Positions 2,393-13,923 of a stretch of 64,000 nt of DNA are shown here, piece by piece (the first letter of the stretch is position 1; each line of letters begins with the position of its first letter). Location: contig JACDGL010000004.1 in the NCBI GenBank assembly GCA_013815385.1, positions 124,001-188,000 of the forward strand, written 5' to 3'. The notes beneath the pieces were generated by a model. It was not told the origin of the DNA. It did not search any database and saw nothing but the letters and a program-made list of their open reading frames with translations. Both the position numbers and the translations under genes were made by a program. The DNA is from Taibaiella sp. Lineage in GTDB: Bacteria > Bacteroidota > Bacteroidia > Chitinophagales > Chitinophagaceae.

Positions 2393-4099
2393 TCACAGAT
2401 TCCCTTTCTTCATTTCGTTTACTGCGTGATCACAAGCCCTGGCTGTAAGTGCCATATATGTGAGCGAAGGATTTTGACACGCCGATGAGGTCATGCAGCT
2501 ACCATCTGTTATATACACATTCTTTGCATCGTGCACCTGGTTAAATTCATTCAGCACAGATGTTCTTGGGTCTTTACCCATTCTTGCAGTACCCATCTCG
2601 TGCACAGTAGATCCACCAGGCCTGTGATACTTGAAAACATCCAGGTTCTTAAATCCCGCATTGGTAAGCATCTCAGCTGAGGTATCTTGTATATCTTTCA
2701 TCATATGCTCCTCATTCTCCTTAAAAGAGAAGTCAATTTTTACAAGTGGTAATCCCCATTTATCTTTTACCTTTTCATCGAGCGCTATATGGTTATCATG
2801 GTAGGGAAGGCACTCTCCCCACCCAGCCATCCACACGGTCCATGCACCGGGTGTGGTGAGCTGCTCTTTGTAATCTTTGCCAAAACCTTCTAATACCTGA
2901 GCTTTATCAAACCATTCCTGGCGTTCGCCATGGCCCTGTATCCCGAAGCCACGTTTATAATTTAAGGCTGCTTTTTCGCCTGGCAGGTTTCGGAAGCGCG
3001 GTATGTAAAAGCCACAAGGTCTTCTGCCTTTATAGTATTGGTCCTTGTATCCTTCATGCTGTCCATATGCTCCTGCATTACTGTGATGATCCATCAGGTT
3101 ATGCCCTACCTCTCCACTGCTGTTGCCAAACCCGTTAGCATGAAGGTTGGATTTCGATTGTAGTAAAATAGATGCGGTACCTATCGTAGATGCATTAATA
3201 AATATAATGCGCGCAAAATAGTCGGTTGTTTCTTTAGTCTCAGTATCTATTATACGTACGCCCTTTGCCTTACCAGTATTTGCATCTGTGATTATCTCCG
3301 TTACTATAGAATATGGCCTTAGCGTCATATTACCTGTAGCCATAGCAGCCGGTAGCGTGGAGCTGTTACTGCTAAAGTAGCCCCCAAAAGGACATCCTCT
3401 ATCGCATAGGTTTCTGTATTGGCACGGGCCTCTTCCATCCCATCCCCTTGTCAAGTTAGCTACACGCTGTATGGTTAGCAGCCGGTCTTTATATTTGCTT
3501 CTAATGCTGTCATTCAGATGTTTCTCTATACAGTTCAGTTCCATAGGCGGCAGCATCTTGCCATCAGGCAAGTGGCCTAATCCTTCTGCCTGGCCGCTAA
3601 TGCCTATGAACGATTCTACATAGTCATACCATGGAGCAATATCTTTGTACCGTATAGGCCAGTCTATTGCAGTGCCGTCTTTTATATTAGCTTCAAAATC
3701 CAGATCACTAAGCCTGTAGCATTGTCTTCCCCAGGTTATAGATCGTCCGCCTACATGATAGCCTCTTATCCAGTTGAAAGGCTTTTCCTGTATATAAGGA
3801 TGCTCTTTATCATTTACAAAAAACTGCTTGATTCCGCTATCATCGCCAAAATTGCTCGACTGAATAGGATATTCTGCAAGGTCTTCCTGGGTTGGCATCA
3901 ACCTATGCTCAAATTCCCACGGATTTTTTGTGGCCGTTGTATAGTCTTTAATGTGCACTACATCCCTACCCCTTTCCAGCACCAGCGTCTTCAATCCTTT
4001 CTGGCATAATTCCTTTGCCGCCCAGCCACCGCTGATACCTGACCCTATGACTATAGCATCATAAGTGTTTTGAGCTATTCCCCCGCTGTTTATATTCAT
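2393..4099 (-). CDS. GMC-family FAD dehydrogenase, catalytic subunit
   Basis: A 568-residue flavoprotein that should oxidise a sugar or other alcohol. The N-terminal Rossmann motif is GSGISGG (residues 19-25) with the ribose-binding E42. A cysteine-rich stretch CQYRNLCDRGC near the middle is typical of this bacterial branch and could hold an iron-sulfur cluster, as in FAD glucose dehydrogenase; that is a possibility only. The C-terminal catalytic region has HEMGTARMG and the QNPSL motif, giving the expected His/Asn pair. No signal peptide is visible, which fits export together with the Tat-tagged small subunit encoded 9 bases upstream. Substrate unknown. Confidence 0.9.
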   Translation of the reverse strand: MNINSGGIAQNTYDAIVIGSGISGGWAAKELCQKGLKTLVLERGRDVVHIKDYTTATKNPWEFEHRLMPTQEDLAEYPIQSSNFGDDSGIKQFFVNDKEHPYIQEKPFNWIRGYHVGGRSITWGRQCYRLSDLDFEANIKDGTAIDWPIRYKDIAPWYDYVESFIGISGQAEGLGHLPDGKMLPPMELNCIEKHLNDSIRSKYKDRLLTIQRVANLTRGWDGRGPCQYRNLCDRGCPFGGYFSSNSSTLPAAMATGNMTLRPYSIVTEIITDANTGKAKGVRIIDTETKETTDYFARIIFINASTIGTASILLQSKSNLHANGFGNSSGEVGHNLMDHHSNAGAYGQHEGYKDQYYKGRRPCGFYIPRFRNLPGEKAALNYKRGFGIQGHGERQEWFDKAQVLEGFGKDYKEQLTTPGAWTVWMAGWGECLPYHDNHIALDEKVKDKWGLPLVKIDFSFKENEEHMMKDIQDTSAEMLTNAGFKNLDVFKYHRPGGSTVHEMGTARMGKDPRTSVLNEFNQVHDAKNVYITDGSCMTSSACQNPSLTYMALTARACDHAVNEMKKGNL

Positions 4100-4108
4100 G
4101 CTGCCCTA

Positions 4109-4684
4109 TTATTTGGTCGCCCAACTTTTTTGCCCGGGCATAATTGGTATGCAGGCTCCATACCCGCCCGGTATGTAATCATAAGCCAAGCCTTTTGTAG
4201 CCCCCTCCATAGAAGTACAATAAGCTATAGCAGTATATATCTTTAAAGTGGTAAAGAAAGATTTGCCGAAAAATTTATTCTGCACTTTCCCCATTATGCC
4301 TTTATATGGCTTCCCCGCATCTTCAAAATGCTGCAATATTTTGTTGCGTTGCATATTGTTGCACTTTATAAAAGAGTTGCCGAATTCAGAATGACTATAT
4401 GACTCCAGGTCTTCCAGCCCGTAAATAAATTTATTTTGTGTAGTCCTGTCAGAGCAGTCCTGTATCAGCGCACAAATGCAATCTTCCGCTTTTACATCTT
4501 TTGCGCCGGGTGTGTCAGTAGCCGGAATAATGGTTTCGGCTAGTTCCGCTATCAGGGGTTTATAACGGTGCAGCTCCGCGAGGTCTGGCTTCTTTCTTAG
4601 TGAAAGAAATTTAAAGCTTTCAACGCCTGCAAAAGCACCAACCCCCAAAACAAATAAACTCTTTATGGCTTTTCTTCTGTTCAT
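4109..4684 (-). CDS. Gluconate 2-dehydrogenase subunit 3 family protein (Tat-exported small subunit)
   Basis: A 191-residue protein that resembles the small subunit of membrane FAD dehydrogenases. The N-terminus NRRKAIKSLF followed by a hydrophobic stretch is a twin-arginine signal. The body contains AELAETIIPATDTPGAKD, characteristic of this family. The gene lies directly before the GMC subunit, with which it should form a complex; in known members the small subunit carries the export signal and acts as a chaperone for the flavin subunit. Electrons would pass to the cytochrome c encoded convergently. The family call is good; the substrate of the complex is open. Confidence 0.85.
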   Translation of the reverse strand: MNRRKAIKSLFVLGVGAFAGVESFKFLSLRKKPDLAELHRYKPLIAELAETIIPATDTPGAKDVKAEDCICALIQDCSDRTTQNKFIYGLEDLESYSHSEFGNSFIKCNNMQRNKILQHFEDAGKPYKGIMGKVQNKFFGKSFFTTLKIYTAIAYCTSMEGATKGLAYDYIPGGYGACIPIMPGQKSWATK

Positions 4685-4705: not shown

Positions 4706-5908
4706 TCAGGATACGATGGCTTTGTATATCTCCTTTACATTATTCTCCCATGTATGAGACGCGGCAAACGCGCGCCTGTCGGCATTCAGCTTATCAGAAT
4801 TTTCAATCAGCGCTTCTTCAATTAACCTTATATAATCCTCATTATTTTTCCCGAGGTAGCAATGTCCGGCAAAGACGCTCATAGCATCTGTTTCTGTAGC
4901 CACCACAGGCTTCCCAAGCGCAAGGTATTCATCTATCTTTCGGGGATAGTTGCCTATTGTTACTTCGTTAAGTAATTGGGGATTGATACATACATCAAAC
5001 GAATTAATATAGGCAGGAAGTTCACTGAGATCTTTGTGGCCGGTAAAATGGACATTGCTCATTTTATGAAGCTCGCTATTTTTGAAGACCTCATCTTCAG
5101 GACCTACTAACACTATTTGCCATTCAGGGCGCATATTAGCTATGTATTTTAACAATTCTACATCCAGTCTGATGCTTTGCAATGCCCCTACATATCCTAT
5201 TACAGGATGTACTATCTGTTGTACATCCGCAGGTTTAGCACTATCAATACCATTTGTGAATATCTCCAGGTCGCAGCCCTGACCTACATAATAGGACCGG
5301 GGATTGTATTGCTTACAATAATTAGCCAGGTAGGTAGAGTTTGCTATGCACAGATCGCTTTTTGCTATTAGCTCCGGTTCTAGCTTTTTACCATGAGATT
5401 TCCAGTAATCTACAGCCAGCAAAAAATCTCGAGAATAGTATATAGACACCTTCGGTTGTAAAAAATCTTTCAGGTAAAAGCTGCGAAAGATATCATTATC
5501 ATTGAAGAGGATAAAATCCCTGAAACCTAATTCATTTATTGCCTTCCTGATAGACGTGGCAAAACGCCTGTTATTGACCTTGTTCAATAGTTCAAATATC
5601 TTCTGGCTTGTGATCCAGTTTATTGATTCTATTATCTTATCAGGATTGTATACCCACAGATTATCATTAATTTTCTCAAGGCCCTTCTTTTTCCCTTTAA
5701 TTACCTCAAGGCGTTTTTGTACTTTTTCGTCATTTTTATTTCGTAGCAAGGAAATTCTATCAAGGGGCGAATTCACATATAAAACCTTATTGTGCTTACT
5801 GAATTCTATTGCAAGATTTTTACAATTACTACCTATCTCCACATCCCAGGGTTGCTGGCCCGTTACCACTATATTGGCATTTTGTATCAACCCGTTATTT
5901 AGGATCAT
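4706..5908 (-). CDS. Glycosyltransferase, GT-B fold (GT1/GT4-like)
   Basis: A 400-residue GT-B type enzyme. The N-terminal half begins NIVVTGQQPWD, a pattern of exopolysaccharide transferases, followed by an alternating beta/alpha acceptor domain. The C-terminal half has GYVGAL near residue 240, then a donor-binding region with INSFDVCINPQ and KIDEYLALGKPVVAT, where the acidic residue of the E-x7-E-like motif would lie. It should use a nucleotide sugar. It is the last gene of the minus-strand polysaccharide run, 102 bases after the Wzy-like gene and 21 bases before the dehydrogenase genes. Which sugar it adds is unknown. Confidence 0.85.
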   Translation of the reverse strand: MILNNGLIQNANIVVTGQQPWDVEIGSNCKNLAIEFSKHNKVLYVNSPLDRISLLRNKNDEKVQKRLEVIKGKKKGLEKINDNLWVYNPDKIIESINWITSQKIFELLNKVNNRRFATSIRKAINELGFRDFILFNDNDIFRSFYLKDFLQPKVSIYYSRDFLLAVDYWKSHGKKLEPELIAKSDLCIANSTYLANYCKQYNPRSYYVGQGCDLEIFTNGIDSAKPADVQQIVHPVIGYVGALQSIRLDVELLKYIANMRPEWQIVLVGPEDEVFKNSELHKMSNVHFTGHKDLSELPAYINSFDVCINPQLLNEVTIGNYPRKIDEYLALGKPVVATETDAMSVFAGHCYLGKNNEDYIRLIEEALIENSDKLNADRRAFAASHTWENNVKEIYKAIVS

Positions 5909-6010
5909 GCTATTCTCTGCTGATTGTATTACCTACTACCAAGATACAGTTATTATTTATACCTCTATTACCATGCGAATCAATTATTTATCAACGAACA
6001 AAATAAGCAA

Positions 6011-7501
6011 TTACACTAAACCTTTCAACTGCTTTTCCTGATCTAATTGATAGGTAATGTTGATCAATGCAATGGTGAGATAAAAGAACACATTTGTCGG
6101 GAATTGCACTATTGCCTCCTGCGGAAAATTGCCCAAGCATATTGCATAAGCCATAACAGTAGCTGCAAGGCAATAATTTTTTAGCTCAGGATCTTTTATG
6201 CTGTAATAGTTCATTATTCCCGTTCGTAATATAATAAACATGAGGGTACAGAATAGGATCAGCCCTATCCATCCCATCTCTACCGCTACACGTACATAGC
6301 CGCTGTCCACTTCAAAGTGAGCAAGGAACGATCCGGGAGAGAACCGCCTACCCCACTCACCAGCAGCCCCGAGACCAGCACCCAGCGGATGCGATTGCAT
6401 AAAAGGCTGTATGCGCTTCTGGTTATACTTACGCAGCTTATAAGACGCATCTTCATTAGGCCTGAATGCGCTCTGAAACCGTTGGATAGATGGACTGCCG
6501 GTGGGTATGAATATCAGTATAGTCAGGAAAATACCCGCTATTACTGTAAATATCATTACCCGTTTGTTATAATTTAATATTGCATAGAGCAGAAGGCCCG
6601 CAGGTACCAGCACATAAGCGCCGCGTGTACCTGAGTAGAGCATAGTCATAAGAAAGAAACCCGCTAATATTGCTAACACTATCTTTTTCCACAGTTGTAA
6701 GTTTCCGGCTATCATCACTATGCACATCAGGCTGCTGATAACCATGTTATATGAAAAGGATACGGGATCAGAGAATATAGAATACTTACGCCAATGACCT
6801 CCTATAAATAGCAGTCCAGCTATCTCCGGGTCAGAGTTGAGATAAGCCATTTCGGAGGCGGAGAAACCAAAATATTCCTGCTTAAAGGCATAAGCTGCAC
6901 CAATAAAAGCGAGCACAAGCCATATTTTTAAGAGCAGGCGTATATACTTGATATCCCTTACCTGATACATAAATATAAAGTACATCAGCATTACTATGCC
7001 CACAGAGCGTACTGTATATACCCAGGCAAGCCTTGATTCCGCAACAGGGTTGGCAATTTCCAGAAAGTTGTACGCTACCCATACCAGGATAATTATGCTT
7101 ACCGGGCTTTTATATATTTTCCAGTTAGGATGAAATTTCTGCTTTATAAAAAACCCCAGTATTAGCAATGCCTGTATGCCATCCATTAAGGTGCCCAAAG
7201 GAAAGGGTATTCCCATCCTGATAAAGAAAAATAGCAGATAGGCCATTATCAGCAATACGAGTATGCCAAATTTCGGATGCGCTACTATCCCAAATATAAT
7301 TGGCCCCGCTAGCATTGCCCCAAACAGGAGCGCCGCGCCAACTATTTCCATTTTATAAATAACAAAAGAAAAAACCAGGGAGAGTATCAGTAATGCTCCA
7401 GTGCCAATGTAATAACGATACTTACGCCAACCAGTGCTATTACCCAGGCTGAATAAAGGCCTTCGGCGCGCTATAGAAGCAGGTCCTTTATCATTGTCCA
7501 T
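6011..7501 (-). CDS. O-antigen ligase / Wzy-like polymerase membrane protein
   Basis: A 496-residue inner-membrane protein with about ten to twelve hydrophobic helices. After a basic N-terminus come helices from about residue 30. A long periplasmic loop with SGTRGAY before it and the stretch HPLGAGLGAAGEWG inside it, around residues 370-385, matches the Wzy_C/O-antigen ligase family, in which an arginine and histidines of that loop act on the undecaprenyl-linked glycan. It should polymerise exopolysaccharide repeat units at the periplasmic face. Only 2 bases separate its ATG from the stop of a 47-codon reading frame upstream. Polymerase versus ligase cannot be decided; the locus favours polymerase. 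Confidence 0.85.
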   Translation of the reverse strand: MDNDKGPASIARRRPLFSLGNSTGWRKYRYYIGTGALLILSLVFSFVIYKMEIVGAALLFGAMLAGPIIFGIVAHPKFGILVLLIMAYLLFFFIRMGIPFPLGTLMDGIQALLILGFFIKQKFHPNWKIYKSPVSIIILVWVAYNFLEIANPVAESRLAWVYTVRSVGIVMLMYFIFMYQVRDIKYIRLLLKIWLVLAFIGAAYAFKQEYFGFSASEMAYLNSDPEIAGLLFIGGHWRKYSIFSDPVSFSYNMVISSLMCIVMIAGNLQLWKKIVLAILAGFFLMTMLYSGTRGAYVLVPAGLLLYAILNYNKRVMIFTVIAGIFLTILIFIPTGSPSIQRFQSAFRPNEDASYKLRKYNQKRIQPFMQSHPLGAGLGAAGEWGRRFSPGSFLAHFEVDSGYVRVAVEMGWIGLILFCTLMFIILRTGIMNYYSIKDPELKNYCLAATVMAYAICLGNFPQEAIVQFPTNVFFYLTIALINITYQLDQEKQLKGLV

Positions 7502-7503
7502 AA

Positions 7504-7647
7504 CTATAGGAACAATAATTTAATAAAAAAAAAGTAACAGGTCGCAAATACCATCAATATTGCTATTTTCCTCATCAATACCTGGGTAGGTGTCAATCCT
7601 TCCTTATTAAGTTTTCCCTCTTTTTTAGATTCAGGATATATCTTCAT
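7504..7647 (-). CDS. Small single-pass membrane protein, 47 residues, unknown function
   Basis: An ATG-started frame of 47 codons fills the gap between the FkbM methyltransferase gene (stop at 7650) and the Wzy-like gene (ATG at 7501), with 2 bases free on either side. The product has a polar, lysine- and glutamate-rich half (MKIYPESKKEGKLNKEG) followed by LTPTQVLMRK and one hydrophobic helix of about 18 residues (IAILMVFATCYFFFIKLL). A cytoplasm-in, membrane-anchored topology is expected. The exact fit between genes supports real translation, probably coupled to the downstream gene. It is not recognised; it might be an accessory subunit of the polymerase. Too short for usual gene-length cut-offs. 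Confidence 0.65.
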   Translation of the reverse strand: MKIYPESKKEGKLNKEGLTPTQVLMRKIAILMVFATCYFFFIKLLFL

Positions 7648-7649
7648 AA

Positions 7650-8384
7650 TTATTTATTAAAGAAGAAATTTGTTTCATCCTCCTGATCCTTGTAGGGTAC
7701 CAGTTTATCATCTATCAATACGTTAGTAGTATATCCAAGTGATTCCAGGTATTCAAAACACATCTGCCTCTTTTCATTCTTCCACAGTTCACAATATATA
7801 ATAGGCATGTGTTTTCTTAATAGTTGTTCGCCGCCTTTCAATACATAATACTCATAGTTTTCCACATCAATTTTTATGGCATCAATTTTCTTTAGTGCAA
7901 TAAGTTCAGGGATGCTATCCAGTGTTTTTACCGGTACAGTTACTTCTCTGCCATTATTCCATTCTGAAGTATCGCCTTCTTCCTTTACATGGCTAAGACC
8001 CTGCATTTTCATTTTATTCATTATCGGCAATACCATGGTCAGCTCACCCATCTTATCGCCCAGGGCATTGGTAAATAACTTTACATTCTTCACTTTAAAA
8101 TAACCAACTATTCGTTTTAATGCTTTGATGTTATCCGGCATTGGTTCGAAAGAAAATACCTGCCCAGTCTTTACCTTTCTTGCAAGGGCAGTTGTCATGA
8201 TTCCTATGTTGGCTCCTATATCCAGTACCGTCCCATTTTCAGGTATATTATTAAGGAAATAGTTAAATTCCTTTTCGTGCTGATTGTTTGCCAATCTCCT
8301 TACTGTATAAATAGCAAACAGGAAGAGATAATTAGAGAACCCTAAAACATTTTGTAGCAATAATTTAAAAACTGTTTTTAGCAT
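7650..8384 (-). CDS. FkbM family SAM-dependent methyltransferase
   Basis: A 244-residue enzyme. The SAM-binding motif is VLDIGANIGIMT (about residues 54-65), followed by an acidic residue in SFEPMPDN, both hallmarks of the FkbM family. IDAIKIDVENYEYYVLKGG near residue 170 is the second conserved block. A hydrophobic N-terminal stretch (about residues 10-30) may anchor it to the membrane. Members of this family O-methylate sugars, so it probably caps or decorates the exopolysaccharide. It sits in the minus-strand run between the processive transferase (22 bases upstream) and the 47-residue membrane peptide gene (2 bases downstream). Confidence 0.88.
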   Translation of the reverse strand: MLKTVFKLLLQNVLGFSNYLFLFAIYTVRRLANNQHEKEFNYFLNNIPENGTVLDIGANIGIMTTALARKVKTGQVFSFEPMPDNIKALKRIVGYFKVKNVKLFTNALGDKMGELTMVLPIMNKMKMQGLSHVKEEGDTSEWNNGREVTVPVKTLDSIPELIALKKIDAIKIDVENYEYYVLKGGEQLLRKHMPIIYCELWKNEKRQMCFEYLESLGYTTNVLIDDKLVPYKDQEDETNFFFNK

Positions 8385-8405
8385 AAATATTTTTTTCTTT
8401 TTTAG

Positions 8406-9593
8406 TTACCCGTCTCTTCGCCTGGTAGCAACAGAATGCTTATTAGCATTGCGCACCTTCATTAGCGACATTACCTGCCAGAACATAAACTTAGGTATAT
8501 TTTTTAGCGACCTGTATATTTTCTCGTTGGTATGGCCCTTTGCTAGCGCTAACAGAAACCCGCATATGAACAGACCAATACCTGCAGCCCAAATAGCAGC
8601 TGCTATAGGCGCTATAAATAAATTAATAAAAAGAAACAATATCGATAGTATTAGAAATATAAATAAGGGGGGGCGTAATAAAATTATCCCGAACAATAAC
8701 TCATTCCAGTTAAACCGTACAATCCCTTTCCCGATCAGATTGAACCCAAACTTAAAATACTTGAACCAGGTATTTATCCATCTTGCACGCTGCTTCACCA
8801 GTTGGTCGGCGTGTGTTGTCTTCTCATCATATACGATCGCATCTCCTGCAAAAGCTATCCGTTTGCCACTGTTTACTATATGGTATTGCAGCACCTTATC
8901 AAAACCCGCTCCTGTTATATCAAGGCTTTCCAGGGAGTCTTTGTACAATTGGGTGGTAAATGCCATTCCAGAGCCTGCAAGGGTAGCAGAAGAGCCTGCT
9001 TCAAAAAGCATTTTACCATCGTAGAAATGGTAATAAATGTCGCGTGCTGCATCCAGACAGGCATAGGTAGTATCCAGGTTTTTTGCATCCCTTCTTCCCT
9101 GCACTGCTATAAATCCTTTATCAAATTCTTTATTTAGTTGGTTCAGGTACTCTTTGTCCGCCAGATTGTCGCTGTCTATAATAGTTAGTCTTTCATGAGC
9201 CCTTACAAATCTATTGATCGCATAGAAATGAGATCGCGTATTACTGGCAAGTGTTTGTTCAGGCCTTAATACGACCACTCGATTGTCTTCAAACTGAAGA
9301 TTTGTTATATCACATTTATCGGCAACTATGTAGATGATGTAGTTAGTATAATTAAGCTTCAGTAATGACAAAACAACCGCGTGTAGCATATGGGTTTGTT
9401 CATACGCTGTTACGATAATTCCGTAATCGGCTTCTGTGTTAATTGGGAGGCTTTTCTTATCTGTGTGAGTAAATAATTTCCGTAAAAGGAAGAATATGTA
9501 TAATATCAAAGGGAACACAAGGTTATACCCAATGCATAGCTGCAGCACTAACCATATGATATGTAATGCGCTATTGTGCATCATCCTCGTCAT
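8406..9593 (-). CDS. Membrane-bound processive-type glycosyltransferase family 2
   Basis: A 395-residue protein with an N-terminal helix (about residues 13-36), a cytoplasmic GT-A domain and two or three C-terminal helices (about 305-355). Catalytic signatures are IIDSDN (DxD-like, near residue 138), GAGFDK, and QRARW, the QxxRW motif of cellulose- and hyaluronan-synthase-like GT2 enzymes. Such proteins polymerise or add sugar at the membrane with a UDP- or GDP-sugar. The gene follows the chain-length protein with 2 bases between them. No PilZ domain is present, so direct c-di-GMP control is not indicated. Confidence 0.87.
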   Translation of the reverse strand: MTRMMHNSALHIIWLVLQLCIGYNLVFPLILYIFFLLRKLFTHTDKKSLPINTEADYGIIVTAYEQTHMLHAVVLSLLKLNYTNYIIYIVADKCDITNLQFEDNRVVVLRPEQTLASNTRSHFYAINRFVRAHERLTIIDSDNLADKEYLNQLNKEFDKGFIAVQGRRDAKNLDTTYACLDAARDIYYHFYDGKMLFEAGSSATLAGSGMAFTTQLYKDSLESLDITGAGFDKVLQYHIVNSGKRIAFAGDAIVYDEKTTHADQLVKQRARWINTWFKYFKFGFNLIGKGIVRFNWNELLFGIILLRPPLFIFLILSILFLFINLFIAPIAAAIWAAGIGLFICGFLLALAKGHTNEKIYRSLKNIPKFMFWQVMSLMKVRNANKHSVATRRRDG

Positions 9594-9595
9594 TA

Positions 9596-11758
9596 TTAAC
9601 TATTTTTTACCGGCAGGGCATTATCAGGAATTTTATTCAATACAAATCCTGAAAATTTATCTCCCAGACTTTTCAGATATTCAACCTGCGGGGCTTTTGC
9701 ATGGTTGAGCTGCGAACCCGCTTCATATACTGTTACAACCTTATCAGCAAATGCTATCCATTCTTTCGCATTGCTTATCCCTTCCAGCGAGGTCGTTTCT
9801 ATTAATATTATATCAAACTTTGCCCTCAGTTCTTCCATTCTATGCACTACAGCATCGTAATTATTAATCTCCAATACAGAGCTATCACCACCCTTATTGC
9901 CCAGTATATTAATAGACACATCACCAAGGGTAAAATCCATGTTGTCACTCCCTCTCAGATATTCTTCTATAGAGTTGCTGGTCTCATTAAGTTTGGTAAT
10001 GTCAGGCTGCTTAAAGTTTCCATCTATTACCAGCACATCCTTCAGCATGCGCGATAATGCATAGGCAAGGCTTATGGTTACAAAAGTTTTGCCTTCGCCG
10101 TGCACCATACTTGTTATAGCTACCACTTTCCCCTTGCCCAGGTCACTCTCTACTTCAAAGCGCAATGACCTTAGCAGGTCTTTGAATGTGCGCATTGGTT
10201 TTGTGGGCGAGGGATTATTCCATATCTGGTTTATATCCAGCCGGCCTCTTTCCAGATTCAGGTATCCTATCACCGGCAACCCGGAAGCATTCGCAAGCTG
10301 TGCAGGAGTACTAATAGAGCGATCGAAATAAAAGAGTACAAAAAATACCAAAACGCAGAAAACAAAACTGATGATGCCTGATAATATCACCAGAAGCATT
10401 TTTTTACCTGGTTTCAGATCACCAGGCATGGCGCGCTCTACCAGTTTTATTGTTCGCGAAGATGTCGATTCTATACTTGCCTGGTTATATTTTTGCAGCA
10501 CATCCAGGTATTCTTTACTGGCTATATCTATTTCGCTCTCGCTCGATTGTATTACGGCCTCATTAGGTACTAGTATGTCCAGCTTTTCATTCAACCGGGC
10601 CAGTTCCCCATTTACAGATTGTACACTATTCTTTGCCAGTTCCAGCGCCAGTTCCAGGTTCATTTTTTGTGTTACCAGGTTTTCCTTCATCACTAAAGGG
10701 CTATACAGGTATTTATCTGACGCCTGCATTATCTGTGCATTCAGCTTGCCTTGCAAAGAGTCCATCATACTCTTATACTTAGGGTCAAAGCCGCTTTGCA
10801 CATAATCCTGGTTTACTAGTTTTATCTGTTCTTTCGTTTGTACAATCTCTGTATTGATGCTGCTTATTGCACTCTCCAAATACTTCCTATCCTCAGGGTT
10901 AAATTTTTCATCGATAGTTTTCAGCGCGGCTGTATTAGCTATGATGTCTCTTTGCGCCTGTTCTTTGCGTGTTTCAAAATCCGCTATTTGTCCATACAGG
11001 GTTTTTGCCTGATCATTCATGTTAAGCACCCTGTTTTTGATCTTATAGTCTTTCAGCGCAGAAGTCTTATTTATCATGATAGCCTGCTTTTGCTTTAGCA
11101 GGCTATCGTAAAAGCTTACAGCTTTATTCTTGTTTTCCTTATTCTGTGTATTGTAATAAGTAATAAACTCATTACAGAGGGTATTAACTACAAATGCTGA
11201 AAGGTTAGGATTTTCCGATTCGAATTCTACATTAATGAAATCACTGTTCCCTACTCTATATACAGTCAGCTTCCTATTCAGCGATTCATTATCATATCCC
11301 ATCGATTTCATCAGCTTGTACAATCCATTCTCATCATTGTTCCAGAGAGAGAGTTCATCCATGGTTGCATACTTAGTTCTGTAAGTATTTATAGCATGCT
11401 GTAATGCAGATTGATTCAATTCCTTTACCAGCTTACTGGGTTTTCTGAAAGCTGAATCTTTACCAAGATCATGCAGCATCAACTTATAGGAAACCTGGTT
11501 CTGAATTTTTTTGGAAAGGATTATCTGATTCAGGTTTTCGAATTCCTGATTTATTTTATATTCCTGGTCAAAAGTGCCTGCTATGGTAAATACCTGTTGC
11601 GATTTATCTACAAGGCCAGTAGCTATGCGCGTATTGGAAACAAAAACATCAGCGATATTACGAACGAGGAAAAAAGTAGCGATGACTGTAATAAGCGGTA
11701 TCACAATCAATGTAATCTTCCGCCTGTAGAGAAACTTAAAAAACTCAAGTAATTCCAT
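9596..11758 (-). CDS. Polysaccharide co-polymerase (Wzz) with degenerate BY-kinase domain
   Basis: A 720-residue inner-membrane protein. The Wzz part has helices at about residues 14-34 and 454-478, with a long periplasmic coiled-coil region between them (about 200-440). The C-terminal cytoplasmic domain resembles bacterial tyrosine kinases: Walker A is TSMVHGEGKT (549-558). However, the A-prime motif reads VLVIDGNF, lacking the second aspartate, and the Walker B reads IILIETTS, with Glu instead of Asp. No tyrosine cluster ends the protein. It should control chain length and bridge to export, but kinase activity is doubtful. Its ATG overlaps the stop of the TolC-like gene upstream, indicating translational coupling. 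Confidence 0.87.
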   Translation of the reverse strand: MELLEFFKFLYRRKITLIVIPLITVIATFFLVRNIADVFVSNTRIATGLVDKSQQVFTIAGTFDQEYKINQEFENLNQIILSKKIQNQVSYKLMLHDLGKDSAFRKPSKLVKELNQSALQHAINTYRTKYATMDELSLWNNDENGLYKLMKSMGYDNESLNRKLTVYRVGNSDFINVEFESENPNLSAFVVNTLCNEFITYYNTQNKENKNKAVSFYDSLLKQKQAIMINKTSALKDYKIKNRVLNMNDQAKTLYGQIADFETRKEQAQRDIIANTAALKTIDEKFNPEDRKYLESAISSINTEIVQTKEQIKLVNQDYVQSGFDPKYKSMMDSLQGKLNAQIMQASDKYLYSPLVMKENLVTQKMNLELALELAKNSVQSVNGELARLNEKLDILVPNEAVIQSSESEIDIASKEYLDVLQKYNQASIESTSSRTIKLVERAMPGDLKPGKKMLLVILSGIISFVFCVLVFFVLFYFDRSISTPAQLANASGLPVIGYLNLERGRLDINQIWNNPSPTKPMRTFKDLLRSLRFEVESDLGKGKVVAITSMVHGEGKTFVTISLAYALSRMLKDVLVIDGNFKQPDITKLNETSNSIEEYLRGSDNMDFTLGDVSINILGNKGGDSSVLEINNYDAVVHRMEELRAKFDIILIETTSLEGISNAKEWIAFADKVVTVYEAGSQLNHAKAPQVEYLKSLGDKFSGFVLNKIPDNALPVKNS

Positions 11759-12429
11759 TATTTAATATCTTCTAACTTTGCACCCAACAATTCTTCAAGG
11801 TTAGCTTTAGCAACTAAATATTCCGTTTCTGCTGTAATCTTTTCTTCTCCGTGGCCTGTATACATGATCAAGGCCATGTCGTAATTATTAAGTGTTTCTT
11901 CGCCTTTTTCAAATTTATACTTGGTATTCTTCAATACGGTTTCCGCATCTATCAACGACTGGGATTTCATCTTCAGTATCGCCGTTCGCTGAATATACGC
12001 AAAATATCTTTGCTTTATCTGCGATTCTATATTCAGATCATTGGCTTGTTTTTCATACTTGGCTATCTTCAGATCATCCTTTGCCTGCTTTACGGTAAAT
12101 GGCTTTTGAAGCAATGAACCTACATTTAGGAAAAACCCAAGTTGATAGCCTCCTAAAGGCCCCACGGTTGTAACTGTAGTTGTTGGGAATGGTGTATAAT
12201 TGTACGAAAGGGTTAATGCATCAGCGTAAGATATCTTGGCTTTATTCACTGTGGTGCGTGCCTCACTAATGCGCACATCATATGATTTGGATCTTGGATA
12301 ATTCGCTTTTGCGTAAGCTATAAGCCTTTCCAGATAAGGGTAAGAAATATCCTGAAGCATAGACTCCTGCGCCCTCACTACATTGAAAGACAGGATAATT
12401 GCAATAAATGCAAAATAGGTTAGCCTCAT
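11758..12429 (-). CDS. TolC-family-like outer membrane protein, half length
   Basis: A 223-residue exported protein: residues 1-20 are a signal peptide ending near VRAQES. The rest is largely helical with a central beta-like segment (LSYNYTPFPTTTVT, GGYQLGFFLNVGSLL) and alternating long amphipathic helices, the layout of one TolC repeat. Normal TolC proteins have two such repeats and about 430 residues, so this is a half-size version that would need to form a higher oligomer or a different structure. It overlaps the chain-length gene by one base. No Wza/OPX gene is visible in the locus, so this may supply the outer membrane part of export; that is inference. Confidence 0.72.
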   Translation of the reverse strand: MRLTYFAFIAIILSFNVVRAQESMLQDISYPYLERLIAYAKANYPRSKSYDVRISEARTTVNKAKISYADALTLSYNYTPFPTTTVTTVGPLGGYQLGFFLNVGSLLQKPFTVKQAKDDLKIAKYEKQANDLNIESQIKQRYFAYIQRTAILKMKSQSLIDAETVLKNTKYKFEKGEETLNNYDMALIMYTGHGEEKITAETEYLVAKANLEELLGAKLEDIK

Positions 12430-12467: not shown

Positions 12468-13562
12468 CTATACTGCCTCCTTTTGAAACATAGCAGGAAA
12501 GGTTTTGAGTAGTATTTTCATGTCCAGCCATATAGAATAATTCTGAGCATAAAAGTTATCCAGCTTCTTTCGCTCACGTTCAGACATATCTTCCTTACCC
12601 CGACGGCTTATCTGCCATAGCCCTGTAAGGCCTGCAGGTGCCAGGAAGCGCCATGACCAGTCTTGCGATGTAAGCATTTCGGCTTCATAAAGTGGCAATG
12701 GCCTGTTGCCCACTGTAGACATATCGCCCTTGAATATGTTTACTAGTTGTGGTAGTTCATCTATGCTCGTCTTTCTGATGAATCTCCCTATTCTAGTAAT
12801 GCGCGGATCATTCTTGAACTTTACAAATGTTGATTTGACATCTTTCCCCTCAGCAGCATATTGATTCAATGCAGCAAGTTCGGCAATGCGTTTATCGGCG
12901 TCTGCCCGCATAGAGCGGAATTTGTAGAAATCAAATATTTTGTATCCTGTACCTACCCGTTTGCTTTTATAAATGATAGGCCCCTTCGATTCTAACCTGA
13001 TGAGTATAGCCACTATCAGAAATAATGGGGATAACAATAACAGCAGTACACCAGAAAAAATTACATCGAATGCCCTTTTTACCGATGGCACTTTAAAGGA
13101 AATTACCGTTTGGTCGGATAATTTATCAAGGCTTGGACGTATGAGTTTGAACTTAACCAGGAACACAAGACGTTCTGAAATATGGTCAATGTTGTAAGGC
13201 GCTTTATAGAAATCATGCACCCTAAGTTTTTTAGCTTTTATCAGCCATTCAGGATTATCTCTTGGCGTCAGAAGCACTATTAACAACCCCTTCAGCATCA
13301 TGTTCTTTTGTATTGTTTCTACCAGTGCAAAGGCAAGCCCCTGTTCATCTATTTCTATCAGAACTATCTCCGGCAGAGATATTAAAGACTGATTGAGCAA
13401 ATAGTTCTCAAGGCTCTTAAGAGTAGGGGTTTCATAAACCTGGAAAAACGGCGCTATCTTTTGCAATGCATCCCGGGTTATCTCGTTGCCGGCACATGCA
13501 GCCACCCTAACGCTGTTAGCATTATAACTCCAGTCAGCTTGCTGCATGGGTGCGTTTTGCAT
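12468..13562 (-). CDS. Phosphoglycosyl transferase (sugar transferase) with receiver-like N-terminal domain
   Basis: A 364-residue protein. Residues about 161-364 are a bacterial sugar transferase: KRAFDVIFSG, one hydrophobic re-entrant helix (168-190), FYKFRSM, then TSIDELPQL with the catalytic Asp-Glu pair, and VGNRPLP. It should put the first sugar-phosphate on undecaprenyl phosphate. Residues about 17-138 do not resemble the usual transmembrane part of WcaJ/WbaP; they follow a receiver fold: EIVLIEID (65-72, beta 3), LLIVLLTP (93-100, beta 4) and DFYKAPY (K120, beta 5), but the phospho-acceptor position is not a clean Asp. The start at 13562 overlaps the receiver gene by 29 bases; a second Met at codon 6 is an alternative. 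Confidence 0.88.
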   Translation of the reverse strand: MQNAPMQQADWSYNANSVRVAACAGNEITRDALQKIAPFFQVYETPTLKSLENYLLNQSLISLPEIVLIEIDEQGLAFALVETIQKNMMLKGLLIVLLTPRDNPEWLIKAKKLRVHDFYKAPYNIDHISERLVFLVKFKLIRPSLDKLSDQTVISFKVPSVKRAFDVIFSGVLLLLLSPLFLIVAILIRLESKGPIIYKSKRVGTGYKIFDFYKFRSMRADADKRIAELAALNQYAAEGKDVKSTFVKFKNDPRITRIGRFIRKTSIDELPQLVNIFKGDMSTVGNRPLPLYEAEMLTSQDWSWRFLAPAGLTGLWQISRRGKEDMSERERKKLDNFYAQNYSIWLDMKILLKTFPAMFQKEAV

Positions 13563-13923
13563 TAAGTATGTTTGAGATTGTCTCTTTCAGCAATGTAGGG
13601 TTAAATGGCTTTGAGATGGTACCATCAACAGTAAAGGGCATATTTTGTATCACACTTTGCATGTCTTCTGATCCTGATAGTACTACCACAGGTGTTTCTT
13701 CATAAAACCCACTGATTTTCAGGTTTCTCACAAATGATGAACCATCCAGGTAGGGCATCTGAAGGTCAGAAATAATAAGGTCAGGAAAATTACCTTCTTC
13801 AAGCCAACGGAAGGCTTCAATTCCGTTCTGCTTACAGATGACACTATACTTCTCAGACATTATGATTTCAAGAAGCTTTGATATTACCGGGTCATCATCA
13901 ACAATTAATATCTGTTCTCTCAT
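13534..13923 (-). CDS. Stand-alone response regulator receiver protein
   Basis: A 129-residue single-domain receiver. It has the acidic pocket VDDDP (D9-D11), the phospho-acceptor D53 in IISDLQMP, the serine S83 of VLSGS and K105 in ISKPF, so phosphorylation is expected. There is no output domain. The gene opens the minus-strand polysaccharide run, and its 3' end overlaps the sugar transferase gene by 29 bases, so the two proteins are likely made together. A direct protein contact with the receiver-like domain of that transferase is an attractive inference. The cognate histidine kinase is not in the window. Confidence 0.93.
   Translation of the reverse strand: MREQILIVDDDPVISKLLEIIMSEKYSVICKQNGIEAFRWLEEGNFPDLIISDLQMPYLDGSSFVRNLKISGFYEETPVVVLSGSEDMQSVIQNMPFTVDGTISKPFNPTLLKETISNILNAKRTHAAS

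Follow-up and report, generated by a model that had tools for sequence, protein, structure and literature searches.

How is a free receiver protein related to the sugar transferase whose gene it overlaps? The question is raised by a locus of Taibaiella sp. (Chitinophagaceae; assembly GCA_013815385.1, contig JACDGL010000004.1, positions 124,001-188,000 of the forward strand; this stretch of 64,000 nt is referred to here as the window), in which a short receiver gene runs into that of a phosphoglycosyl transferase (PGT). A first-pass annotation had described this PGT as bearing a receiver-type N-terminus in place of the usual membrane helices, and had suggested that a receiver-receiver contact puts the first committed step in the synthesis of a polysaccharide under direct phospho-control. 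Both open reading frames and their 29-base overlap were recovered as annotated (table 1).

Table 1. Features of the receiver-PGT locus and its operon, in window coordinates
Feature	Position	Strand	Basis
Free single-domain receiver, 129 aa, no output domain	13534..13923	-	PF00072 at residues 5-116, E 3.9e-21; D9, D10, D53, S83, K105
Asp53 (phospho-acceptor) codon of the free receiver	13765..13767	-	D in 180/195 rows including the window
29-nt overlap of receiver 3' end and PGT 5' end	13534..13562	-	ORF coordinates
Pseudo-receiver-PGT, 364 aa	12468..13562	-	PF02397 at residues 162-359, E 7.5e-62
Predicted pseudo-receiver domain, residues 18-140, (beta-alpha)5	13143..13511	-	AlphaFold2 model, PhoB 1zes overlay, receiver profile matches
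Glu70 codon at the pseudo-receiver acceptor position	13353..13355	-	Aligned to D53; E in 162/163 group-A rows
Extended alpha-5 helix/linker, residues 125-151, from pseudo-receiver to catalytic domain	13110..13190	-	F134, L135, K139 near-invariant
Monotopic PGT catalytic domain, re-entrant helix 160-191 (P179), D268-E269 dyad	12480..13085	-	PglC 8e37 overlay
Short outer-membrane protein, one OEP repeat, same operon	11758..12429	-	PF02321 E 1.4e-18
Wzc-like chain-length/BY-kinase-like protein, same operon	9596..11758	-	Wzz/CbiA/TIGR01005 matches, all below curated cut-offs
Polysaccharide cluster genes: GT2, FkbM methyltransferase, Wzy-like, GT1	4706..9593	-	Family matches

Several neighbouring genes have features of their own. 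The TolC-like outer-membrane protein has only 223 aa and a single complete OEP repeat; TolC proteins usually have two. Since the 69 OEP-like ORFs of related loci are all similarly short (median 226 aa, maximum 255), the half-length export protein seems to be conserved. The Wzc-like protein keeps its P-loop and gives weak ATPase matches (CbiA, AAA_31), and a C-terminal tyrosine cluster was not seen in it by eye. Genes for a GMC oxidoreductase and a gluconate 2-dehydrogenase subunit 3 follow the polysaccharide cluster (2393-4684, minus strand). Eight related loci (L208, L209, L211, L212, L213, L216, L217 and L224) have, close to the receiver-PGT pair, a giant ORF of about 2,340-2,410 aa. That of L211, the only one scanned, contains fn3, PA14 and laminin-G domains with a Por secretion tail, and from these matches looks like a type IX-secreted surface protein.

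The two domains of the transferase

A re-entrant helix and an Asp-Glu dyad are hallmarks of the monotopic PGTs (monoPGTs). The window protein has the PF02397 catalytic domain, the proline of the re-entrant helix and the dyad; its catalytic domain superposes on PglC (8e37) with a Z of 21.8 and an rmsd of 2.7 over 181 aligned residues, and P179, R202, D268, E269 and R287 are invariant in all 195 paired PGTs. As the annotation had stated, the usual membrane helices are replaced: hydropathy reveals no TM-like segment in residues 1-155, where the maximum over 19 residues is 1.35 versus 2.83 near residue 172, in the re-entrant helix. Furthermore, PF13727 finds no match in the window PGT. Lacking both this domain and a TM bundle, the protein is thus not a large monoPGT. 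In two distant relatives (L206:2940-4139 and L207:1435-2646) an extra cysteine-containing segment (CPKC ... CSPL ... VICDYW) is found inside the catalytic domain.

What, then, precedes the catalytic domain? Residues 1-150 of the window PGT match no Pfam family at E up to 1, and PF00072 at its gathering score is not matched by the protein. Profile comparisons place the region among the receivers. A profile of 75 PGT sequences aligns with one of 73 free receivers (hhalign probability 97.2, E 3.5e-11, 118 columns) and, when searched against the PDB, returned among the best 60 of 110 matches seven PGT sequences first, then PleD chains (E 8.5e-9) and after these mainly other receivers (E up to 0.27). 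An HMM of the free receivers matches 132 of the 195 paired PGT proteins. PF00072 itself is matched at E up to 1 by at least 20 of 75 relatives (best E 7e-4 among the matches listed), and the PGT of the distant relative L206 passes its cut-off (34.8 bits vs 30.2, E 2e-8). AlphaFold2, run on a 75-row alignment (mean pLDDT 85.3), predicts strands and helices in receiver order over residues 21-151, with block pLDDT values of 86-96 at residues 31-140 and 60-73 at residues 11-30. With this model Foldseek retrieved BeF3-activated PhoB (1zes, target TM 0.86), on which VIA-align 2 placed it with a Z of 17.0 and an rmsd of 1.9 over 117 aligned residues. As judged from the profiles and the predicted structure, the first ~140 residues are a receiver fold, homologous to receivers. 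The annotation had named structure prediction and a profile search against receiver families as checks on its receiver-type N-terminus: the predicted fold is that of a receiver and not an unrelated one, and receiver families are what the search recovered.

The fold is also predicted in much diverged relatives. The 195 paired proteins, window included, were split by a list of locus ids into group A (163 rows) and group B (32 rows, with the distant rows counted in), the latter being relatives from the window's own family in the genome set. The group-B N-terminal domains are only 6-19% identical to that of the window. Their profile matches the free receiver (probability 94.3, E 1e-7), and a model predicted from 24 rows of group B and two that are more distant has its five strands and its helices ordered as in receivers, at lower confidence (mean pLDDT 76.5); with it Foldseek returned single-domain receivers (target TM about 0.5-0.7) and also arginine decarboxylase chains.

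Linkage of the receiver and transferase genes

The loci were collected in similarity searches with E cut-offs of 1e-60 and 1e-85 and include many close relatives. The PGT was found in 47 of 147 genomes with the first cut-off and in 175 of 399 with the second, and is not universal; the named hosts are Mucilaginibacter, Pedobacter, Niabella and relatives. A short receiver gene lies directly upstream of the PGT in 106 of the 109 loci of the first set (a count in which L009 and L069 are partly masked). The same holds for 194 of the 197 distinct PGT proteins of an enlarged set, from which proteins under 340 aa, identical copies and proteins with masked letters had been dropped before counting. In these 194 loci the two genes overlap in 131 cases, are separated by 0-50 nt in 57 and lie farther apart in 6, with a maximum of 124 nt. 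As to the three exceptions, L018 is 204 bases from the contig end, in L040 a reading of the locus gave no receiver ORF upstream, and in L128 a histidine kinase gene takes the place of the receiver. A histidine kinase gene lies directly upstream of the PGT of L207, which has no free receiver.

Control loci were retrieved from the same family of genomes with the own genome's large monoPGT or one of its own small PGTs. A receiver was upstream in 0 of 30 loci retrieved with the former and 0 of 30 retrieved with the latter; with the same scoring the pseudo-receiver set gave 28 of 29. Of the 60 controls, 57 have an upstream stretch of at least 650 nt (L187 only 15 nt), and 42 encode PGTs of at least 400 aa. 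In two controls (L153 and L204) the other strand carries a receiver gene downstream of the PGT. A survey of the gene neighbourhood in relatives was a further check named in the annotation, and the conserved pairing that it looked for is found.

The pair also outlasts its neighbours. OEP and Wzc genes follow the PGT, as in the window, in 61 of the 76 loci whose downstream flank covers at least 3 kb. In the 15 loci that lack both, the receiver is still upstream in 14 (directly in 13) and absent in L040; in one of the 15, L113, it lies 326 nt from a shortened PGT ORF. Since the pair outlives OEP and Wzc in 14 of 15 cases, the bond between receiver and PGT is tighter than that to the export genes. 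Moreover, the association is old, because the group-B pseudo-receivers, at 6-19% identity, are still paired. As far as gene linkage tells, a dedicated single-domain receiver is tied to this PGT, as in EpsW/EpsZ-type regulation (discussed below). No fusion of the two proteins was seen among the 195 paired PGTs, which have 351-412 aa and never two receiver-HMM domains. Mean-field DCA of the 195 concatenated pairs (Neff 91) gave no usable contact signal: the scores, which we take to be dominated by phylogeny, have a hub at P163, and the top inter-protein pair, R126-P6, falls in the overlapping DNA.

Kinase genes are rarely close by. All 35 HATPase_c (histidine-kinase-type ATPase) matches in the own genome lie outside the window, and a histidine-kinase-like ORF was found in only 4 of the first 109 loci, always on the opposite strand (flanks of up to 5 kb in 80 loci and at most about 1.5 kb in 29). 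Three genomes of family code f5, which we infer to be Flavobacteriaceae, were inspected. In G440 the genes for a short receiver, a PAS histidine kinase, FIST, a histidine kinase, an Hpt-like protein (named by eye, with no Pfam match), LytTR, STAS, the free receiver, PGT, OEP and Wzc run in one direction. G479 has a kinase-like ORF, FIST and a histidine kinase before the PGT and lacks the free receiver; G342 has the receiver, PGT, an OEP-like gene and Wzc, with no kinase in the stretch examined. Kinase genes near the PGT in two of these three genomes fit phospho-control. The FIST, Hpt-like and STAS signalling genes ahead of the G440 pair are at L205:909-1238, L205:2019-2321 and L226:5171-6361; no FIST-type sensor was found in the own genome.

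Phosphorylation sites and the role of the free receiver

The two receivers differ in their catalytic residues. PF00072 is the only domain of the free protein, and the catalytic set is complete (residue numbers that we take to agree with those of PhoB), as the annotation had asserted; the protein is a single-domain response regulator. The acidic pair, D53, S/T83 and K105 are all kept in 148 of 163 group-A and 19 of 32 group-B free receivers, part of the set being missing in 13 of the latter. In the PGT, profile alignment puts E70 opposite D53. Column 70 is Glu in all group-A rows except one; in the 32 group-B rows it is D in 15, E in 12, K in 2, N in 2 and R in 1. The acidic-pocket positions are G25 and N26 in the window PGT, and over the 195 rows the pocket is not conserved. 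Opposite K105 stands A121; a lysine occupies this column in 1 of 195 rows, and D70 and K121 occur together in none. The beta-5 lysine had been assigned to K120, which is one column off and present in 3 of 195 PGT proteins, and we discard that assignment. The statement that a clear phospho-acceptor is missing was right as to the absent Asp; the position is nevertheless occupied by a Glu that is near-invariant in group A. Also invariant or nearly so in group A are D117, F134, L135 and K139. With Glu at the acceptor position and neither acidic pocket nor catalytic lysine, the pseudo-receiver, to go by its residues, cannot be phosphorylated normally.

In this context, we consider it probable that the PGT has in the free receiver an activating subunit of its own, the two genes encoding one regulatory enzyme that would be phospho-switched in most lineages and hard-wired in some. 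The PGT would pass a sugar phosphate to the lipid carrier and so start the synthesis of the polysaccharide repeat unit, and its pseudo-receiver would serve as a fixed docking or dimerisation adaptor replacing the four-helix bundle and DUF of the large monoPGTs. The free receiver, made from the overlapping gene, would bind this adaptor, probably through a receiver-receiver interface. Once phosphorylated by a kinase encoded elsewhere it would render the PGT active, most likely as a dimer; in some lineages, an acceptor-less free receiver would be a constitutive subunit. Direct contact, activation, phospho-dependence and dimerisation of the pair are what we infer here. Points against this reading are the lack of a histidine-kinase-type ATPase match in the window, the PGTs of L040 and L207 that have no free receiver upstream, the 13 group-B receivers with an incomplete catalytic set and, in M. 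xanthus, the failure of D58-substituted EpsW to stimulate EPS. A more specific version, which we put forward tentatively, is a two-chain switch. In it a pseudo-receiver that has an acceptor Glu and lacks the acidic pocket would stay permanently in an active-like shape and join the free receiver in a heterodimer, and this rather than a receiver homodimer would turn on the first committed step; several lineages would have become "always on" when phosphorylation of the free receiver was lost or mimicked.

The lineages without an acceptor bear directly on these readings. D53 is replaced in 15 of the 195 free receivers (S in 9, E in 4, V in 1, N in 1), through at least 4 changes by parsimony on a FastTree tree of the PGTs; thus phosphorylation is not essential in every lineage. 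At least five of the nine D53S receivers are from Pedobacter and eight also have D10G, and in the four D53E receivers D10 is changed to S or T. Ten of the 15 acceptor-less rows were used for dN/dS, with pairs of dS under 2.2 reported, and four pairs (three S, one E; dS 0.57-1.63) gave values of 0.02-0.09. The receivers so measured are under purifying selection and do not look like decaying genes. Because acceptor-less receivers persist with low dN/dS, we take it that the PGT needs its free receiver even where the latter is not phosphorylatable. The same losses, with the gene still adjacent and, in the four pairs measured, under selection, would suit a structural subunit or chaperone of the PGT in which phosphorylation is secondary or vestigial. 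We regard this as unlikely, since phospho-chemistry is needed to explain the retention of the full catalytic set in so many receivers of group A and in 19 of group B. In addition, the four D53E losses with D10S/T show the same kind of change as the PhoB D10A/D53E described as constitutively active in the title of PDB 2jb9, and these receivers may be "locked on" instead of vestigial.

Alternatively, the free receiver might act elsewhere, on another effector, as a phosphate sink or in a relay, its place in the operon serving co-expression only. Single-domain receivers can indeed work in phosphorelays, according to the accessible text of PMC12802240, and G440 has kinase and Hpt-like genes upstream. 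We find this scenario improbable, given that the receiver is linked to this type of PGT only (0 of 60 control loci) and that the pairing survives both the loss of other operon genes and the loss of the acceptor, which a relay or sink could not tolerate. That the pairing simply reflects recent common ancestry of one conserved operon, as the OEP and Wzc genes common to 61 of 76 loci and the many close relatives (Neff 91 of 195) might suggest, is scarcely credible when the pair outlives those neighbours and is retained beside group-B domains so dissimilar to that of the window. Equally far-fetched is a truncated large-monoPGT cytoplasmic DUF (PF13727) in place of a receiver: the N-terminal domain does occupy the place that the DUF has in WbaP, before the same catalytic domain, and a loose whole-length overlay on WbaP (8t53) exists at an rmsd of 18-19, but PF13727 is matched by the large monoPGT of the same genome (L003, E 7e-8) and not by the window PGT, and profile searches return receivers, with L206 passing PF00072.

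Relation to known regulators of PGTs

Several known systems share features with the pair. PleD-type response regulators hold a REC domain, a REC-like adaptor and an enzyme, a diguanylate cyclase, in one chain. The likeness to PleD, the best PDB profile match after the PGTs (among the best 60 of 110), lies in a phosphorylatable receiver and a degenerate receiver adaptor beside an enzyme domain; in the window system, in contrast, the degenerate receiver is joined to a membrane PGT, and the phosphorylatable one is encoded as a second chain. PglC and WbaP share the catalytic domain, re-entrant helix and DE dyad of the window PGT. PglC differs in having no regulatory domain, and WbaP in the TMH bundle and DUF of the large monoPGT architecture, as described in the accessible text of PMC10942596.

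The closest functional parallel is EpsW/EpsZ of Myxococcus xanthus (mBio 2025, PMC12802240). According to the accessible text of that paper, the single-domain EpsW, when phosphorylated, is found close to EpsZ, a large monoPGT, in vivo; EpsZ is stimulated in a heterologous host when EpsW is co-expressed, EPS in M. xanthus is not stimulated by an EpsW substituted at D58, and control of this type is suggested to be widespread. In both cases a single-domain response regulator acts, or in ours is proposed to act, on the PGT that starts a Wzx/Wzy-type polysaccharide, and post-translational activation by direct contact and dimerisation is a proposal. EpsZ, however, is a large monoPGT with a TMH bundle and a DUF without beta-hairpin, whereas the window PGT has neither and carries a pseudo-receiver. 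The window pair differs further in that the receiver gene overlaps or abuts that of the PGT, the acceptor is lost in some lineages and the named hosts are Bacteroidota. The direct phospho-control suggested in the annotation has in EpsW/EpsZ an experimental precedent; it is not universal, given the 15 receivers without acceptor Asp.

The same text cites O'Toole et al. (PNAS 2021) for small monoPGTs with receiver domains; in these, as here, a receiver is fused to a monoPGT catalytic domain. These proteins are known to us through that citation and may overlap with the window family; a partner receiver, an acceptor Glu or acceptor losses are not mentioned in the accessible text of PMC12802240. With EpsW/EpsZ and this citation, control of an initiating PGT by a response regulator is already known and the receiver-PGT fusion type already noted. 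Narrow all-term queries of the open-licence literature returned no title on a receiver/pseudo-receiver-PGT pair in Bacteroidota, and the form seen here, with two receivers conserved and the acceptor naturally lost in some lineages, appears to be undescribed in the searchable literature.

The broader question is how bacteria restrict the flux into pathways that compete for undecaprenyl phosphate. If our reading of the pair is true, a response-regulator switch on the initiating PGT would be common in Bacteroidota, in a PGT made simpler, and presumably more tractable, by the lack of a helix bundle, and the natural acceptor-less variants would offer a direct test of phospho-dependence. Should the two-chain switch hold, the acceptor-less lineages would be natural constitutive mutants.
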